Part shown: one piece after another, positions 2,772 through 29,233 of the stretch | How positions within the stretch are numbered: the first letter of the stretch is position 1 | Layout of the letters: each line of letters opens with the position of its first letter | DNA from: a virus | Length of the DNA: 37,872 bases | Strand: one strand, 5' to 3' | IMG/VR virus record: IMGVR_UViG_3300045612_000195 | Location: 1 to 37,872 of that record | Translations under genes and position numbers: made by a program | The notes under the pieces: model-generated | The model's database searches: none | What the model was told of the DNA's origin: nothing | The model's input: the letters and a program-made list of their open reading frames with translations, nothing else

Positions 2772-4202
2772 ATGGATCCGATTACAGCGTCGATTTTGAT
2801 ATCTGGAGGTATCAACGCATTACAAGGTAAAAGAGGTTCAGATTTACTTAAAAGCACTATTAGCGATGCAGCTTTAGCTTATGCAACTCAAGGAGCTTCT
2901 GCTGGAGCACAAGAAGGTATATCTACAATTCCTGGTATAGATGATCTAAGTCAAGTAGGAAGTAATGTTGGACGAGAAGTATTAGCACAAGAAGCGGGAT
3001 TAGCTGCAACTAGAAAAGAATTACCAATGCAGTATGACGCAGGTGACTACATGCAGTTTCAACAAAGTGTTCAAGGTTCTCCTTCTTTTTCTTTTGGAAA
3101 AGGATTAAGTGATGCATTTGAGCAAGGAAGTAAAGCAATAAATAAAGGATTAGACTTTTTTAGAAAAACAGATGAAGCTGGTAAAATTTTACCAAGTAAA
3201 GAATATGATAAGGGAAAAGTTTTATTAGGAGCTGGGGCATTAGGAGCAGGATTATATGCTGCTGGAGCTTTCAAGCCAACACCTGCACCTCAACCAAAGT
3301 ACCCTGGATTTAATAGATTCTATGCAGCAGATCCTGGAATGTTTCAACCATTCTCTGGCAGATACGGACCAGATCCATCTAAATATCCAGAAGGATCTCC
3401 TTACAGCGGAATGCAAGAAGGTGGTCTAGCATCACCAGATGATTTAATGAACCAATCAGCAATGGCCATAAATACACCCTCATCGCCAATAAGTAGTTTG
3501 TACGCGATGGCTAAAAATAGATTTTTACCGCAACCATCAAAAGGTGAATCTTTGCAAACTGAAACTGAACCAATGTCATTGGGAATTGACACTATTGCTG
3601 AAAATTTGCCAGAGGCCCTAAAAAGAAAATATATTTTGGAATATAAATCAGACCCAAATAATACTGCTATAAAATTTGCGCAAGAAATGAAAGACACAGA
3701 TAGATTATCTATTGCTGACATTAATCAGGCTAAAAAAATATTAAATAATTTATCAAATGATGTTAAAATGCCAATAAATGATTTAAAAGGCATACTAGGA
3801 CTTGTTGGTGAAAGCGATGTAAGTGTACCAAAGGCTCCTAATACACCAGAATATATACAAAGATTAATAGAATTAATACAAGCAAGGTCAGTAAATGAAC
3901 CACCAAAAGCATTTATGAGCGGTGACGTGGTTGATGTATTACCCTCAAAATTAATTAGAAATGAAAATGATGAAATGAATTACAAAAGAACTTCCGGTAA
4001 ATTAGTCAGAGATGAAACTGGTAAAGGAAGCGGAAATAAAGACACCATGTTAGCTCAACTAGCAGATGGTGAGTTTGTTACAAAATCTAAATCAGTCCTT
4101 GGTGCTGGTAAATTAATGGGGGGTAAATCTAAAGAAGAACAAAGAAATTTAGGTGCTCAATTTTTTTACAAACAAATGGCTGAATTAGAAAAATTTGCAT
4201 AA
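2772..4202 (+). CDS. Putative virion structural protein, 476 aa
   Basis: No enzymatic motif. The N-terminus is small-residue-rich and helical. A hydrophobic stretch near residues 150-165 (LLGAGALGAGLYAAGAF) could insert in a membrane, and a Pro/Gly-rich segment (PGFNRFYAADPGMF) follows. The C-terminus has GEFVTKSKSVLGAGK, a phrase recurring in marine phage structural proteins close to the tail or ejection genes. The stop overlaps the ATG of the next gene by one base. I infer a minor virion or ejection protein from context and composition. An RBS (AGGAG) lies upstream. Confidence 0.6.
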   Translation: MDPITASILISGGINALQGKRGSDLLKSTISDAALAYATQGASAGAQEGISTIPGIDDLSQVGSNVGREVLAQEAGLAATRKELPMQYDAGDYMQFQQSVQGSPSFSFGKGLSDAFEQGSKAINKGLDFFRKTDEAGKILPSKEYDKGKVLLGAGALGAGLYAAGAFKPTPAPQPKYPGFNRFYAADPGMFQPFSGRYGPDPSKYPEGSPYSGMQEGGLASPDDLMNQSAMAINTPSSPISSLYAMAKNRFLPQPSKGESLQTETEPMSLGIDTIAENLPEALKRKYILEYKSDPNNTAIKFAQEMKDTDRLSIADINQAKKILNNLSNDVKMPINDLKGILGLVGESDVSVPKAPNTPEYIQRLIELIQARSVNEPPKAFMSGDVVDVLPSKLIRNENDEMNYKRTSGKLVRDETGKGSGNKDTMLAQLADGEFVTKSKSVLGAGKLMGGKSKEEQRNLGAQFFYKQMAELEKFA

Positions 4203-11213: not shown

Positions 11214-12588
11214 ATTTATTTTTTAAAGAAAGCACAATTTTTTCATCTACACTATCTTCAGTTATTAAATCAATATAAGTTACTTTTTTAGTTTGGCCTA
11301 TTCGATGAGCTCTTTCTTCAGATTGAATTCTATGCTCAGCATTAAAACTATTTGAATAATAAATAACTAATGTGGCCGATGTCAGTGTTAAACCAAATCC
11401 TCCAGTTGATGGGTTAGCGACAAAAAATCTACAATTGCGATCATTCATAAATAAATCAATAGCTTTACTTCTTTTTTCAGAATTTACTGCGCCGTAAAAA
11501 TTAACAACGGACGACGGACCATAAATGTCTATAAGTTTATTAGTTATCTCTTCAATATTATAAACCCAGTTTGCCCATATAATAATTTTTTCGTCAGTGT
11601 CTTCTATAATTTCTAATAGTGCATCTAATTTATTATTATTTAATTTTTGTATCTTACCAGATTCTCCAGAAAAAAAACCCGCAGTAATTTGATGAAGTCT
11701 AATAATTTCAGTGAGCACATTATTGACAGTCATTCTATCTCCGTCTAAGTTTGCAATAGCTTGTTCTTTTATTTCATTGTAAACTTTTTTCTGTTCTTCA
11801 GTTAATTGCACCACTCTTTTTGTATATACTTTATCTGGTAAATCTAAACAATCTTCTTTTTTAATTCTAAAAGAAAACGTTTTTAATTTTTGTTCTAGCT
11901 CTTCAAGATTCTTAAATCCTACTGGTACAGCAATTTGTCTGTCCCCTGTAATATGAACAATATCAAATACACAGTATCTATTTTTAAAAGCTACAAATGA
12001 ATTAAAACCTAAATGTTTAGGGTCTAAAAATTCGCACTGAGTATATAAATCTACCGGACTTTTAGTCACCGGTGATCCTGTCAAAATTCTACGATACTTA
12101 GAAATTTTTCTTAATTTTAAAAGATTTTTAGTTCTTTTAGCTCTATAGTTTTTAACAGTAGATGATTCGTCTACTGCAATTAATGCATTATGTTTTATTA
12201 AAAATTGTACTGCAAATTGGTAACCCTTAATCGTAGACAAAGCTTCTATGTTCATGACAAACAATTTAAGTTTATCACTTTGTTTTAAAATAAATTCTTG
12301 ACAAGTTTTTTCTTTTGTTGGTTTCCATAAATAAGTTTCATAAGGAACGTTTAGATGTTTAGGTATTTCATCATTAAACCATACTGTGTATACAGATTTT
12401 GTTGCTATTATTAATGAAGCATTTATATTATTTAATGTGTATAATACTCCAACATTATCCAATAAAACTTTAGTTTTTCCTGTGCCCATCTCCATAAAAA
12501 GAGCGTAACTCTCTTTATTCCAAGAAAGCTCCAATGCTTTGCGTTGATGTGCAAAAGGTTCAGTTTTAAAAATATATTTTGCTACCAC
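11164..12588 (-). CDS. SNF2-family DNA helicase/ATPase
   Basis: 474 aa on the minus strand. Motifs in order: PFAHQ near residue 11, Walker A EMGTGKT (33-39), Walker B variant VDESS (139-143, DESS rather than DEAH/DESH), LTGSP (169-173), then STGGFGLTLTSA and RAHRIGQ (426-432). This is a complete SF2 core without extra domains. It presumably remodels or translocates on DNA during replication. No ATG is available in frame; GTG at 12588 is the first start after an in-frame stop. It is transcribed against the replication operon and reads away from the promoter at 12599. Confidence 0.9.
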   Translation of the reverse strand: MVAKYIFKTEPFAHQRKALELSWNKESYALFMEMGTGKTKVLLDNVGVLYTLNNINASLIIATKSVYTVWFNDEIPKHLNVPYETYLWKPTKEKTCQEFILKQSDKLKLFVMNIEALSTIKGYQFAVQFLIKHNALIAVDESSTVKNYRAKRTKNLLKLRKISKYRRILTGSPVTKSPVDLYTQCEFLDPKHLGFNSFVAFKNRYCVFDIVHITGDRQIAVPVGFKNLEELEQKLKTFSFRIKKEDCLDLPDKVYTKRVVQLTEEQKKVYNEIKEQAIANLDGDRMTVNNVLTEIIRLHQITAGFFSGESGKIQKLNNNKLDALLEIIEDTDEKIIIWANWVYNIEEITNKLIDIYGPSSVVNFYGAVNSEKRSKAIDLFMNDRNCRFFVANPSTGGFGLTLTSATLVIYYSNSFNAEHRIQSEERAHRIGQTKKVTYIDLITEDSVDEKIVLSLKNKFKLSAATLGEVVRTWL

Positions 12589-25368: not shown

Positions 25369-25720
25369 TGTTGGACTTGGCATTCCCGATGTCAATGGAT
25401 GTTATCGAGGAACTGAATTTTGGCTCGAGTTGAAGGTAAAAAAGAGAAAACAAACTTCATTAACTAAATATCAAAAAGCGTGGATTTTAAAACGCGGTAG
25501 TGCTGGTGGCAGAGTTTTTATCTTAAATTTCGACCTCAGGCTGAGGGCCGTAAAACTTTATGACTACAATTCTTGCTTGCACCCTGATCCGTTATTCACG
25601 CTTCCCGTTTCCCATTTCCCGCACCCCGTTTCATGGACCGCGGTTTTAAATAAGATAATCACCCATCAGGCATCTACTTCAGGGCACCAGGATGCAAGTT
25701 CAAAAACAAATAAAAAATAA
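25289..25720 (+). CDS. VRR-NUC-like PD-(D/E)XK nuclease
   Basis: 143 aa. Core GLGIPDVNGCYRGTEFWLELK gives Asp34, Glu47 and Lys49, with a preceding N-terminal helix (ESKLYQKIKKAL): the VRR-NUC or phage Holliday-junction-nuclease pattern. The last 40 residues look unlike a folded domain and are encoded by DNA carrying CCCGTTTCCC repeats, suggesting the repeat region extended the reading frame. It overlaps the metallopeptidase gene by 80 bp in a different frame. Confidence 0.7.
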   Translation: MQKEESKLYQKIKKALPNVHFQRIETNVGLGIPDVNGCYRGTEFWLELKVKKRKQTSLTKYQKAWILKRGSAGGRVFILNFDLRLRAVKLYDYNSCLHPDPLFTLPVSHFPHPVSWTAVLNKIITHQASTSGHQDASSKTNKK

Positions 25721-25723
25721 TTG

Positions 25724-25752
25724 TTGACATCACATCCCATGATGATTATATT
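25724..25752 (+). promoter_or_regulatory. Near-consensus promoter with ATCCCAT motif
   Basis: TTGACA (25724-25729), 17-bp spacer, TATATT (25747-25752). ATCCCAT at 25734-25740 is in the spacer, the same arrangement as in the leftward promoter at 19998. No gene follows; the expected transcript is the structured RNA at 25760. Confidence 0.65.
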
Positions 25753-25759
25753 TGTGGTC

Positions 25760-25820
25760 GGTAGCTCGACATCCTCTAAATAATTAGCTCCTGTTTAGTG
25801 TCCGTTGGGCTACCATTTTT
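25760..25820 (+). ncRNA. Candidate small RNA with 11-bp stem and T-run
   Basis: GGTAGCTCGAC (25760-25770) pairs with GTTGGGCTACC (25804-25814), 11 continuous pairs with two G-U. An inner stem CTAAA/TTTAG (25776-25780, 25794-25798) has a 13-base loop. ATTTTT follows the outer stem. With the promoter just upstream it forms a complete promoter-RNA-terminator unit of about 60 bases. It is not a tRNA. Layout resembles the 22369 hairpin (long stem, 31-33 base loop). Confidence 0.55.
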
Positions 25821-26021: not shown

Positions 26022-26053
26022 GTTTGCTTTAACAATTAACAAAAGGAGCCACG

Positions 26054-26356
26054 ATGCAGAAGCCGAAAGAAAATATGATTTATACGTGCAAAGAGCACGG
26101 TAAAGAAACTTACTTCAAAATAAAAAAACAAGAACTATTAAAGGACTTTAAAAATTTTGTTTACGTATGGTTTACTGAAGGTAATGTAAACGAAAAGATG
26201 TGGGTGCAGATAAGATCAGGAACTCAGCGCCGTGGTTTTGGGACTGTGGCCAACGAAGCTCGTCATCTTAAAAAATGGAAACTTCATGATACTTTGTTTT
26301 ATGAAACTGGTAGAGATAGAGTTACAAGGCCTAATCAAATTAAATTAAAATATTAA
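26054..26356 (+). CDS. Hypothetical protein, DUF2314-like, 100 aa
   Basis: RBS AAGGAG at 26043-26048. The central part, EKMWVQIRSGTQRRGFGTVA followed by NEARHLKKWKLHDTLFY, fits the DUF2314 pattern (E..WV.......G.....NE...L..L..GD...F). Function unknown. The C-terminal RDRVTRPN tail is shared, at DNA level, with the small membrane ORF at 26781. Confidence 0.55.
   Translation: MQKPKENMIYTCKEHGKETYFKIKKQELLKDFKNFVYVWFTEGNVNEKMWVQIRSGTQRRGFGTVANEARHLKKWKLHDTLFYETGRDRVTRPNQIKLKY
26311..26335 (+). repeat. 25-bp direct repeat, copy A
   Basis: Exact 25-base match to 26846-26870 (begins TAGAGATAGAGTTACAAGGC). It encodes RDRVTRPN at the end of the 100-aa protein. Similarity continues weakly on both sides. 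Confidence 0.85.
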
Positions 26357-26539: not shown

Positions 26540-26779
26540 ATGAGAAAGAAAAAATTACCGAAGTGGGGTTGGGTTGATGATGATCACATCTCCATTTTGT
26601 GGAATGTCGAAGACGTTAAGGAACAAGCCCAAAACATAAATATCAGACTAAACAAGGAGGAATGCCGTCAAGTTCTTGATTTGTGTTTGAAGTATCATGA
26701 TGCAAATGTTGGCATCTCGTGGGAAATTCTGGATACACACATCTTAGATTTGTTTGGTCATCGGAAAAAGGTAGCGTAA
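26540..26779 (+). CDS. Conserved phage hypothetical protein, 79 aa
   Basis: Helical, with LNKEECRQVLDLCLKYHDAN and VGISWEILDTHI. The pattern 'ec..vl.l....hDanvGIsWd.i' recurs in many phage small proteins without a known role. Two bases separate it from the upstream stop. A 14-base piece of its 3' end recurs at 27076. Confidence 0.6.
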   Translation: MRKKKLPKWGWVDDDHISILWNVEDVKEQAQNINIRLNKEECRQVLDLCLKYHDANVGISWEILDTHILDLFGHRKKVA

Positions 26780-26780
26780 C

Positions 26781-26879
26781 ATGTGGACATTAATAATAGT
26801 TCCTGCACTCATTGCGATTCTTTATCCTGAGTTTGCAGGAACTATTAGAGATAGAGTTACAAGGCCTAATTTAAAATAG
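26781..26879 (+). CDS. Tiny membrane peptide with internal hairpin, 32 aa
   Basis: MWTLIIVPALIAILYPEFAG forms one membrane span, followed by the RDRVTRPN tail copied from the 100-aa gene. The coding DNA holds a perfect 14-bp inverted repeat, TAATAGTTCCTGCA / TGCAGGAACTATTA (26794-26807, 26834-26847). Either the peptide or the hairpin may be the functional unit. No RBS is obvious; coupling to the upstream stop (one base away) is likely. Confidence 0.45.
   Translation: MWTLIIVPALIAILYPEFAGTIRDRVTRPNLK
26846..26870 (+). repeat. 25-bp direct repeat, copy B
   Basis: Second exact copy of 26311-26335, in the membrane-peptide ORF, read in the same frame to give RDRVTRPN. Indicates a segmental duplication of a gene end. 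Confidence 0.85.
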
Positions 26880-26890
26880 ACAAAAGCTGA

Positions 26891-27029
26891 TCCCGTTCCC
26901 GCATCATGTTTTGGTTGTTACTATTATTACTTGCCCTGCTGCTGTTCACAGTACCAGGGCAGGTAGCTCTGCTGCTTCTGTTGATTTTGTTGATGTAGTC
27001 CCGTTCCCGCATCCCACGTCCCGTTCCCG
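26891..27029 (+). repeat. TCCCGTTCCCG repeat cluster 2, three copies flanking an ORF
   Basis: TCCCGTTCCCGCATC is exact at 26891-26905 and 26999-27013, directly flanking the 26906-26998 ORF. TCCCGTTCCCG recurs at 27019-27029. The flanking arrangement resembles an inserted cassette. Confidence 0.75.
26906..26998 (+). CDS. Tiny hydrophobic peptide MFW-1, 30 aa
   Basis: Almost wholly hydrophobic (MFWLLLLLLALLLFTVPGQV, then Leu-rich). Aligns with the ORF at 28224 (MFW, LLFT, GQ, LILL), so the two are paralogues. The coding DNA contains a 12-bp stem, TTACTTGCCCTG / CAGGGCAGGTAG (26927-26938, 26955-26966), with two G-U pairs. Flanked by exact 15-bp repeats. No good RBS. Confidence 0.45.
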   Translation: MFWLLLLLLALLLFTVPGQVALLLLLILLM

Positions 27030-27209
27030 TAGTCTTGATTAATCAAAGAGAAGTTCACCATCCTGAAGGTAGCTGCATCGGAAAAAGGTGCGGAAATTCC
27101 TGCATTGAGAGGACTAATATGATTTATTTTAAATACAACTAAAAAGTTAATTGACTTTAAAAGTATCTCATATATATAAGATAATAAATAAACAACATAA
27201 GGAGCAACC
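27000..27209 (+). other. Noncoding stretch with gene-end relics
   Basis: No ORF supported. Contains the palindrome TTGATTAATCAA (27035-27046) and CATCGGAAAAAGGT (27076-27089), an exact copy of the 3' end of the 79-aa gene (26759-26772). The following TTCCTGCATTGAG resembles the start of the adjacent membrane ORF. This looks like a decayed duplicate of that junction. Confidence 0.5.
27151..27183 (+). promoter_or_regulatory. Promoter with palindromic operator
   Basis: TTGACT (27151-27156), 16-bp spacer, TATATA (27173-27178). The palindrome TATCTCAT-ATAT-ATAAGATA (27164-27183) covers the -10; one base of the left arm differs from the two perfect copies downstream. Confidence 0.6.
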
Positions 27210-27803
27210 ATGGGTATGGACGTGTACGGATTAAATCCGAAAATTAAAGAAGGTTCTGTGAAACCTAAAATAGACTGGAACACAGCAACCGAAAAAGAAA
27301 AAGACGATTACTTCAAGCAGATGGACAAGTTTGAAGAAGAGAACAAAGGTTATTACTTTCGCAATAATGTTTGGTGGTGGAGACCTCTTGCGAATTATAT
27401 AATCGAGTTCACTGGTTGTGTGGAAGAAGAACATGTAGACTACTGGCACGAGAATAGTGGTTTTAAGGTAAATGAAACTGTTGCAAGAGAAATTGCTAAA
27501 CAGTTAAAACATTTAATTAAGGTCGGACATACAAAAATGTATGCCGAACAACACATGGCAGATTATAAGAAAGCAGAGGCACACAACAAAAAAGTTGAAG
27601 AAGAGGCGCAAAAGTTCCATCAAGAAATGGTAAAAAAGCATGGAATGGGTATTGCTCCGCGTGATTATCCTAAAGAAGATTACGAAAAATGGAACGTAAT
27701 ACAAAATAAAAAAGACTGGACTGGCGATTATCCGTTTAATATAAAAAACGTTCAAGAGTTCGCAGAGTTTGCCGAAGAGTCAGGCGGTTTTAAAATTTGC
27801 TAA
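27210..27803 (+). CDS. Conserved phage hypothetical protein, 197 aa
   Basis: RBS AAGGAG at 27199-27204. Starts MGMDVYGLNP and continues with YYFRNNVWWWRPLANYI, a widespread signature of an uncharacterised phage and bacterial family. A long charged helix follows (KKAEAHNKKVEEEAQKFHQE), then a C-terminal segment (NVQEFAEFAEESGGF). The family has no known activity. Single-gene unit with its own promoter, operator and downstream hairpin. Confidence 0.7.
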   Translation: MGMDVYGLNPKIKEGSVKPKIDWNTATEKEKDDYFKQMDKFEEENKGYYFRNNVWWWRPLANYIIEFTGCVEEEHVDYWHENSGFKVNETVAREIAKQLKHLIKVGHTKMYAEQHMADYKKAEAHNKKVEEEAQKFHQEMVKKHGMGIAPRDYPKEDYEKWNVIQNKKDWTGDYPFNIKNVQEFAEFAEESGGFKIC

Positions 27804-27814
27804 ATTAAAAGTTC

Positions 27815-27836
27815 ACGGGCGACCACGGTCGCCCGT
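27815..27836 (+). terminator. GC-rich hairpin, 9-bp perfect stem
   Basis: ACGGGCGAC / GTCGCCCGT with a CACG loop, 11 bases after the stop of the 197-aa gene. Very GC-rich for this genome. No T-run follows; instead the TCCCG repeats begin at once. Terminator or RNA-stability element. Confidence 0.55.
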
Positions 27837-27855
27837 CCCGTTCCCGTTCCGTGAT
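27836..27855 (+). repeat. TCCCG repeat cluster 3
   Basis: TCCCGTTCCCGTTCCGTGAT; the last 16 bases are identical to 28341-28356 in cluster 4. Confidence 0.75.
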
Positions 27856-27866
27856 GCGTGACTTGT

Positions 27867-27923
27867 TTGCAGATGTTAATAATAATACCATCCAGCGCAT
27901 CCTGGATCTCCCTGCAATTTTTT
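27867..27923 (+). terminator. Two-tier hairpin with T-run
   Basis: Outer stem TTGCAG / CTGCAA (27867-27872, 27912-27917), inner stem ATCCAG / CTGGAT (27890-27895, 27902-27907), then six T. A composite terminator just before the next promoter. Confidence 0.5.
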
Positions 27924-27929
27924 CTATTT

Positions 27930-27972
27930 TTGACTTGACTTCAGTAATAAGCTATCTTATGTATATAAGATA
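27930..27972 (+). promoter_or_regulatory. Promoter with perfect palindromic operator
   Basis: Two overlapping TTGACT boxes (27930-27935 and 27935-27940). The second lies 17 bp from TATGTA (27958-27963). The perfect palindrome TATCTTATGTATATAAGATA occupies 27953-27972. RBS AAGGAG at 27981-27986 serves the gene at 27991. Confidence 0.65.
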
Positions 27973-27990
27973 ACAAACAAAAGGAGCACT

Positions 27991-28224
27991 ATGATAAAAG
28001 CAATAGAGTTAAAAAAAGGTGATAAAGTAAAAACAAATCAGTTAGGTCTTGAAACTTCCGGCGTTCTTTTGGAGTCACCGAAACAAGGTCGCGGTCTTAA
28101 ACAGACAATCTTAGTTGACTGTAAAGGGTCAGAGGTTGGTTTGTTCGATGAGGCCGGATCAGTTTACATCAATCAAGTTAAAAAAGTTTTAAGGAATGAT
28201 ACTTGGATTGAAGTAGTGGTTTAA
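27991..28224 (+). CDS. Small beta-rich phage protein, 77 aa
   Basis: ELKKGDKVKTNQLG, then GVLLESPKQGRG, and GSEVGLFDEAGSVYINQVKKV suggest an SH3-like barrel; the GSEVGLFDE phrase is shared by uncharacterised proteins of many phages. No known activity. Strong RBS. Its stop TAA overlaps the ATG of the MFW-2 peptide (TAATG), implying coupled translation. Confidence 0.6.
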   Translation: MIKAIELKKGDKVKTNQLGLETSGVLLESPKQGRGLKQTILVDCKGSEVGLFDEAGSVYINQVKKVLRNDTWIEVVV

Positions 28225-28319
28225 TGTTTTGGATTTCAATCCTTGCAGTGATTGGCCTGTTGTTTACCACAGCAGGCCAATTGCTTTTACTTTTATTTTT
28301 AATTTTACTTCTTCTCTAA
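28224..28319 (+). CDS. Tiny hydrophobic peptide MFW-2, 31 aa
   Basis: MFWISILAVIGLLFTTAGQL then Leu/Phe-rich to the end. Paralogue of the ORF at 26906. Coupled to the 77-aa gene by TAATG overlap. The coding DNA holds a 13-bp stem, AGTGATTGGCCTG / CAGGCCAATTGCT (28247-28259, 28273-28285), with two G-U pairs. The stem base pairs differ from MFW-1 but the position in the ORF is similar. Confidence 0.5.
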   Translation: MFWISILAVIGLLFTTAGQLLLLLFLILLLL

Positions 28320-28356
28320 TCCCGTCCCGTTTCCCATCCTGTTCCCGTTCCGTGAT
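28320..28356 (+). repeat. TCCCG repeat cluster 4
   Basis: TCCCGTCCCGTTTCCCATCC, then GTTCCCGTTCCGTGAT (28341-28356). It starts directly after the MFW-2 stop, as cluster 2 does after MFW-1. Confidence 0.75.
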
Positions 28357-28526
28357 TAATTTATTAAAGCAGCGGATGGGATGCAGCTGACAACGGTGGA
28401 ACTGGTGGAGTTGGTTGCAGGGTAGTGTTTTGGTTTTAAACATTAGATTTTTAAATTTGATATGAATGTTGCAAAGAAGCAACAGTAAAAAAATAATTGT
28501 ACATAATTAAAAATATTTCTTGTTTT

Positions 28527-29206: not shown

Positions 29207-29233
29207 AACTAGGGCGTGTTTCACGCCCTAGTT
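29207..29233 (+). terminator. 12-bp perfect hairpin before large terminase
   Basis: AACTAGGGCGTG / CACGCCCTAGTT around TTT, 9 bases after the upstream stop. Perfect 12-bp stem; the T-run is lacking (TTAAATTAG follows). Most likely closes the accessory island's transcription. Confidence 0.6.

Follow-up and report, generated by a model that had tools for sequence, protein, structure and literature searches.

The stretch of DNA analyzed here (the window) comprises positions 1 to 37,872 of IMG/VR virus record IMGVR_UViG_3300045612_000195 and comes from a phage that shares 68% identity in the large terminase with HTVC023P, a phage of the marine bacterium Pelagibacter. Several short gene units lie at 25.6 to 29.3 kb of the window, and three tiny open reading frames (ORFs) are found in this region on the plus strand, namely, ORF A (26781 to 26879; 32 amino acids [aa]), ORF B (26906 to 26998; 30 aa), and ORF C (28224 to 28319; 31 aa). 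B and C, which are assigned as membrane peptides on the basis of family membership and selection, each stand at the end of a short gene unit as its last ORF. A is chimeric, with one part from a tiny membrane ORF and the other from the tail of a neighboring gene, orf100. An earlier reading of the sequence alone (the sequence-only reading) had listed ORFs of 32, 30, and 31 aa at 26781, 26906, and 28224, had noted inverted repeats inside them, and had described the three together. All of the ORFs are present as claimed, and the proposal that the last two are paralogous held, with 56.7% identity between B and C over 30 aa (expect value [E] of about 2e-6, from a small database). The common grouping stood only in part: B and C form one family, but A is not a paralogue of either.

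Each ORF contains an inverted repeat on the plus strand (G-U pairs are not counted in the following percentages). The repeat of A is 14 nucleotides (nt) long, is 100% paired, and straddles the joint between the two parts of the chimera (26794 to 26807 and 26834 to 26847). The hairpin of B covers codons 8 to 20 (26928 to 26945 and 26948 to 26965; 18 nt, 83% paired), and the repeat of C is 13 nt long and 92% paired (28251 to 28263 and 28269 to 28281). When G-U pairs are included, the C hairpin extends to 17 pairs (28247 to 28263 and 28269 to 28285) and is followed by TTTACTTTTA, an arrangement that is terminator-like. The internal repeats reported previously were thus confirmed, and they correspond to the three most stable local folds of the region: a scan of 64-nt windows between 25.4 and 29.4 kb ranked C first, followed by B and then A. 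Relative to 200 dinucleotide shuffles, the z scores were -3.6 for A (1 of 200 shuffles folding as well), -2.7 for B (2 of 200), and -6.3 for C (0 of 200). When codons were permuted, 282, 28, and 7 of every 1,000 permutations folded as well as A, B, and C, respectively; a separate codon-usage null was set aside because it confounds G+C content with structure. The hairpin claimed for A is therefore a perfect 14-nt repeat but is no stronger than its codon content gives. The stems of B and C had been described as differing in sequence while staying paired; the position of their 3' arms is indeed common (at the x-x-Gly-Gln codons), but their 5' arms are offset by one codon. No Rfam model matched at its gathering score across the whole window.

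Relatives were collected from IMG/VR via the terminase and neighboring genes, and 223 sequences were searched, including overlapping records and the window itself (L numbers denote relative loci or records). Iteration of a profile search recovered 102 matches from 71 of the 223 sequences; at the DNA level, 35 of the matches are distinct. The 35 members comprised 5 C sequences, 9 B sequences, 2 sequences of type D (L002 and L196), 17 sequences of a sister group (group I), and 2 single members (a C-like ORF in L173 and L176, and L003). Most members start with Met-x-Trp and have Gly-[Gln/Arg] near position 18; the 17 group I sequences have the signature M[HQ]W..LF..L[MIL]RS[DE]WGR. The group I ORF sits behind a DUF7222 gene (Pfam E of 9e-16 for that of L008), and a family member is present in 24 of the 26 loci that the DUF7222 gene retrieved. 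Among terminase-fetched loci, many of which have little sequence upstream of the terminase, 10 of 80 hold a member. Such family counts favor intact ORFs, since the profile was built from the members found first; counts based on the neighboring gene g119 are free of that bias. Across the 12 loci found through g119, two of which represent the window's own phage, C or its homologue was kept in all 12 and B in 11, the exception (L177) having just 926 nt upstream of C. No homologue keeping the stem with a broken ORF was seen among these 12 loci. C is preceded by g73 (27991 to 28224, plus strand; 77 aa), whose TAA overlaps the ATG of C by one base, and C was present in 10 of the 11 loci with g73 at least 80% identical (L097 was the exception).

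Substitution patterns point to selection on the peptides. The ratio of nonsynonymous to synonymous polymorphism (pN/pS) in frame 0 was 0.39 for group I, 0.16 for C, 0.42 for B, and 0.13 for D. In a pairwise test based on hand-picked pairs without a tree, with each sequence used at most once and 28 of the 33 grouped sequences included, synonymous and nonsynonymous changes were compared with 1,000 sets in which the substitutions were re-placed. The synonymous:nonsynonymous values were 14:4 for C, 42.2:42.8 for B, and 32:34 for group I, with 0 of 1,000 null sets as high in each case, and 6.5:2.5 for D, with 23 of 1,000 null sets as high. Other coding frames over the tiny ORF were considered and rejected. 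All 31 sequences of groups I, B, and C have an open frame at offset 2 across the tiny ORF, with pN/pS values of 2.4 to 3.7, and the frame at offset 1 contains stops in every sequence, with pN/pS values of 0.47 to 1.4; the value for B at offset 1 (0.47) is near that of the true frame. In L005 (705 to 1151) and L008 (1341 to 1769), overlapping frames of 148 and 142 aa, respectively, span the tiny ORF and its C-rich repeats, and over the tiny ORF, low pN/pS is confined to the tiny frame.

Database searches assigned no family to A, B, or C in Pfam (E of ≤1) or NCBIfam (E of ≤5), and PHROGs gave nothing for A or B and just a weak match for C (phrog_26748; E of 0.55). A PADLOC scan that did not include A returned no family for the tiny ORFs, nor did PDB sequences searched with an alignment of B and C. 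When C and one group I peptide were used as tblastn queries against 50,697 phage records (low-complexity filter on), no match was obtained, and the family profile matched nothing in stretches of four phage records (L083 to L086). A literature search found no description of the B/C family, which is no proof of absence. We conclude that B and C represent an undescribed family of predicted single-span peptides of about 30 aa, found in relatives of HTVC023P and, as judged from these substitution patterns, under purifying selection. The two peptides are presumably translated and inserted into the membrane, and the units are presumably separate transcripts. The proposal that B and C encode peptides is thus borne out by the synonymous excess in all four groups and by the retention of the ORFs in the g119 loci.

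Structure beyond codon content was evaluated across the relatives using 300 permutations per sequence, in which the protein and codon content were kept. The mean z scores were -2.46 for C (5 sequences), -1.41 for B (9 sequences), -2.61 for the C-like ORF of L173, -1.24 for L003, and -0.56 for D (2 sequences). All five C sequences have the C hairpin at identical codon positions, and 96.5% of the cells of its stem are paired; the corresponding value for the B stem is 70.1%. The C-like ORF of L173 keeps a strong hairpin in another part of the ORF. A stem inside the ORF seems to be favored in the lineage of the window.

Hairpins at the unit ends were ranked against 291 tiles of the window, with L001 placed on the same scale. 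The hairpins at the ends marked by B, g197, C, and g95 ranked 1, 5, 0, and 3, respectively, in the window and 3, 5, 2, and 2 in L001. In both records, B and C have the hairpin within the ORF, and g197 and g95 have it behind the stop; in the window, the hairpins of g197 and g95 are at 27815 to 27836 (followed by a C-rich repeat) and at 29208 to 29232 (the last unit end), both on the plus strand. The sequences downstream of the B and C ORFs were weaker (ranks of 288 and 23 in the window and 46 and 76 in L001). The ranks inside further B ORFs were 5, 7, 13, and 17, those inside further C or C-like ORFs were 0, 1, 3, 3, and 3, and a strong hairpin behind g95 was also present in L003, L005, and L008 (ranks of 3, 3, and 5). 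In the lineage of the window, the coding sequences of B and C carry the stem-loop that neighboring units have past their last stop. C is the sole long terminator-like match on the plus strand of 25.6 to 29.4 kb and has a T-rich tail. A G+C-rich stem followed by a T tract was found for C of both the window and L001; the other plus-strand matches are two weak ones of 6 to 7 bp in B. L097 has a g73 homologue without the tiny ORF and with a bare hairpin behind its stop. The L097 hairpin, TATAACCCTGAAATTATTCAGGGTTATA, occurs at 3045 to 3072 and again at 3671 to 3698, behind two gene stretches, and the first copy adjoins a stretch that looks promoter-like by eye.

C-rich repeats accompany the tiny ORFs on the plus strand, before B (26892 to 26901), directly behind the stop of B (26999 to 27030), and directly behind the stop of C (28320 to 28350). 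The pattern CCC[AG]Y(1-3)CCC was found no more than 21 nt past the stop in 28 of the 35 members (no more than 3 nt in 25), and the remaining 7, all from group I, have the variant TTCCCACATCCC past the stop. The window contains 11 such repeats on the plus strand and 0 on the minus strand; the counts for all loci, overlaps included, are 797 and 58. Of 286 distinct repeat clusters, 23 have the end of a tiny membrane ORF no more than 12 nt upstream, compared with 66 of 13,380 random positions; the 23 clusters include A and two probable chance matches (L048 and window position 12485), and the hydropathy limit used excludes group I. Tiny membrane ORFs outside the family profile were seen at L019 6915, L022 1405, L184 2211, L185 246, and L186 3243, with CTCG-type repeats directly behind their stops. 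The position and strand of the C-rich repeats would suit a Rho entry site; other conceivable roles considered for them were a packaging site and template-strand G-quadruplexes. At the other end of the ORF, 23 of the 35 members have the start of the upstream stop at +10, +1, or -2 relative to the start codon, 4 have it at -8, and 6 have it at -19 to -26; these 6 are all B sequences with a C-rich repeat between the stop and the start, and no ribosome site was evident by eye in them. For 2 members (B of the window and L215), no upstream ORF was found in range.

We favor, with a probability of roughly 0.55, the interpretation that B and C genuinely encode membrane peptides and that the same coding sequence also serves as the stem-loop at the 3' end of the message. 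The stem-loop would set or protect the 3' end of the message: the C hairpin with its T-rich tail would act as an intrinsic terminator, and the B hairpin might stop trimming in the 3'-to-5' direction once termination had occurred in the C-rich tract, a putative Rho entry site. The full-length peptide message would come solely from transcripts that pass the hairpin, and coupled translation from the preceding gene would favor that passage. Rho-generated 3' ends are reported to be trimmed back to stable structures (PMC12350095); the C-rich tract downstream of a stable hairpin resembles such ends, although the hairpin described here lies in coding sequence. Such an overlap of a stem-loop with a conserved peptide gene would be a case of dual coding. 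A membrane peptide of about 30 aa that stays fixed at the ends of gene sets while the front genes swap makes a good candidate for a part in host interaction or regulation, and a membrane-borne role of this kind is our guess.

Several observations weigh against this interpretation. The 17 group I sequences had a mean z score of +0.26, that is, no hairpin beyond codon content, and at six group I ends, the best hairpins ranked 5 to 63 in the ORF and 63 to 228 behind it. The gene ending at 25720 in the window likewise has no strong hairpin (ranks of 234 and 182), and these ends together show that hairpins at unit ends are not a general rule. Two of the nine B sequences (L090 and L095) are without excess structure. 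The hairpins of B, g197, and g95 lack a T tract, and terminator-like matches in the region numbered 5 on both strands, compared with 2.6 (standard deviation, 1.8) in shuffles. In the covariation check suggested earlier, three pairs of the B stem had changes on both sides, amounting to 5 cells (0 of 500 shuffles reached 5), which favors the interpretation, but the C stem has no two-sided changes, and its letter shuffles paired as well in 500 of 500 cases. None of the 69 distant g73 loci has a family member behind g73. The putative Rho entry site rests on composition, and C-excess 40-mers are not confined to unit ends; since C-excess stretches also occur elsewhere, composition alone is not decisive, and a role for Rho is something that we infer. 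An ORF kept without pairing had been named as the case that would count against the hairpin, and group I, which provides it, counters a general hairpin requirement. Because group I peptides exist without excess fold, a particular stem is not needed by the family; by this comparison, the hairpin appears to be younger than the peptide and lineage-specific.

Of the alternatives, the one that survives best, although it is unlikely, is that B and C are small membrane toxins whose translation is limited by an mRNA hairpin, in the manner of type I toxin genes. The small size and hydrophobicity of the peptides, the strong structure inside their ORFs, and the constant codon position of the hairpin in all five C sequences would fit this explanation, and the type I toxins Fst, Ldr, TisB, and Ibs are hydrophobic peptides of about 30 aa, similar in size to B and C. 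However, when the ORF is folded alone, the predicted stems of B and C begin roughly 22 nt downstream of its start, with the start codon mostly unpaired; 23 of the 35 start codons are at or in the upstream stop region; and the sister group (17 sequences) has no structure in excess of codon content. Unlike type I toxins, B and C match no toxin family, have no start-codon structure, and are the last ORFs of multigene units. Neither the fold-gated translation nor the likeness to small toxins put forward by the sequence-only reading gained ground from these results; the fold may gate translation, but the evidence gives no support for it.

Also improbable is a control of the TnaC type, in which a ribosome at the stop of the tiny ORF would shield the adjoining C-rich tract from Rho, with translation of the peptide deciding read-through into the next unit. 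The closeness of the tract to the stop and its restriction to the sense strand of the genes in the window are consistent with this mechanism, and a short ORF with a stop abutting a candidate Rho site resembles the TnaC leader peptide. In contrast to TnaC, the peptides here have a membrane span, and the tiny ORF closes a unit instead of leading one. We give still less weight to cis-acting membrane mini-peptides, for which translation through a terminator hairpin to the Rho entry tract would decide between stop and read-through; if this were true, the phage gene program would be set by a 30-aa peptide through its membrane insertion or through ribosome arrest. An equally low probability applies to the idea that these elements are intrinsic terminators alone, with the T-rich tail giving the frame its hydrophobic look. 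C does have the 17-bp stem and T-rich stretch of an intrinsic (Rho-independent) terminator, but its stem is within an ORF that is conserved, a T tract is absent from B and from the noncoding hairpins at unit ends, the frame is under purifying selection, and group I peptides have no excess stem. A structured RNA with incidental ORFs, the other option raised previously, would account for the strong folds and some pair-preserving changes in B but is very unlikely and is rejected for B and C because of the synonymous excess in all four groups and the retention of the ORFs in the g119 loci (12 of 12 for C and 11 of 12 for B) with no stem-only homologue; group I, in addition, keeps the peptide without an excess hairpin.

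A common origin of A, B, and C was considered and ruled out, since A is a chimera of a tiny membrane ORF and a duplicated orf100 tail. In L185, a membrane ORF of 34 aa, MWTLIIILALIAILYPETAATIWIVLAIGVEKLV, comes next after a homologue of orf80, and the DNA of A is 79% identical to this tiny ORF over 71 nt. A continues into the tail of orf100, with a 53-nt match to 26283 to 26335 at 79% identity, the last 25 nt of which are identical to 26311 to 26335. In the window, orf100 (26054 to 26356, plus strand) opens the unit that ends with B, and orf80 (26540 to 26779, plus strand; 79 aa) matches PHROG 10258, of unknown function (PHROGs E of 5e-10); homologues of orf80 are present in L001, L173, L176, and L184 to L186. 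B lies directly behind orf100 in L190 to L193 and behind orf80 in L001, L093, L094, L173, and L176, and the window carries both genes and the joint between them. No inverted repeat of at least 10 nt was found in L185 at 215 to 370, the stretch that matches A. The joint was also detected in two other records, which are 100% identical to the window there and thus represent one phage population rather than independent cases; the only copies of A found were identical ones. On the basis of these matches, A is a recombination scar. It would be the joint left by the insertion of a gene cassette between orf100 and B, and it may no longer do anything. A shows that a swapped cassette can leave a false third family member.

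The B junction bounds this gene exchange: orf100 and orf80 alternate ahead of B and its repeats, which stay. Promoter early stem-loops (PeSL elements) of T4-like phages (PMC4503421) are likewise described at junctions of shuffled genes, where they place stem-loops and promoters. Unit-end hairpins and candidate operator or promoter sites are present here, but the promoter-like matches, numbering 16, are no more frequent than in shuffles (12.8; standard deviation, 4.0). The present case differs from PeSL elements in that it concerns another phage group and in that the stem is within a conserved peptide gene, with a C-rich repeat behind it.

An operator-like palindrome, TATCTYATRTATATAAGATA, precedes three of the units (at 27164, 27953, and 28530), compared with a chance expectation of 0.05 matches; the first copy (27164 to 27183, plus strand) is before g197. 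A degenerate palindrome of the TATCTYATRTATATAAGATA type, judged by eye, is present ahead of orf100. A hairpin of the form GTTGC-loop-GCAAC occurs ahead of the next gene in the window (28468 to 28483), L001 (9087 to 9102), and L019 (8827 to 8842) and is common to relatives whose sequence otherwise differs.

A candidate small RNA was observed on the plus strand at 25760 to 25814, with ATTTTT behind it and, in front of it, the best promoter-like site of the region (25724 to 25752). No match to this candidate was found in Rfam or in the phage records. Its exact core pattern was detected in 51 of 222 loci, a count that includes overlaps and pieces of the window itself, and in none of the bacterial genome contigs. 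The candidate has an 11-bp stem (GGTAGCTCRAY/GTTGGGCTACC), in which 2 of the 11 pairs vary, on one side only each time, and its loop, TTAGCTCCT, is invariant in 12 aligned sequences. This loop is complementary to AGGAGC at 26044, 27200, and 27982, ahead of three genes.

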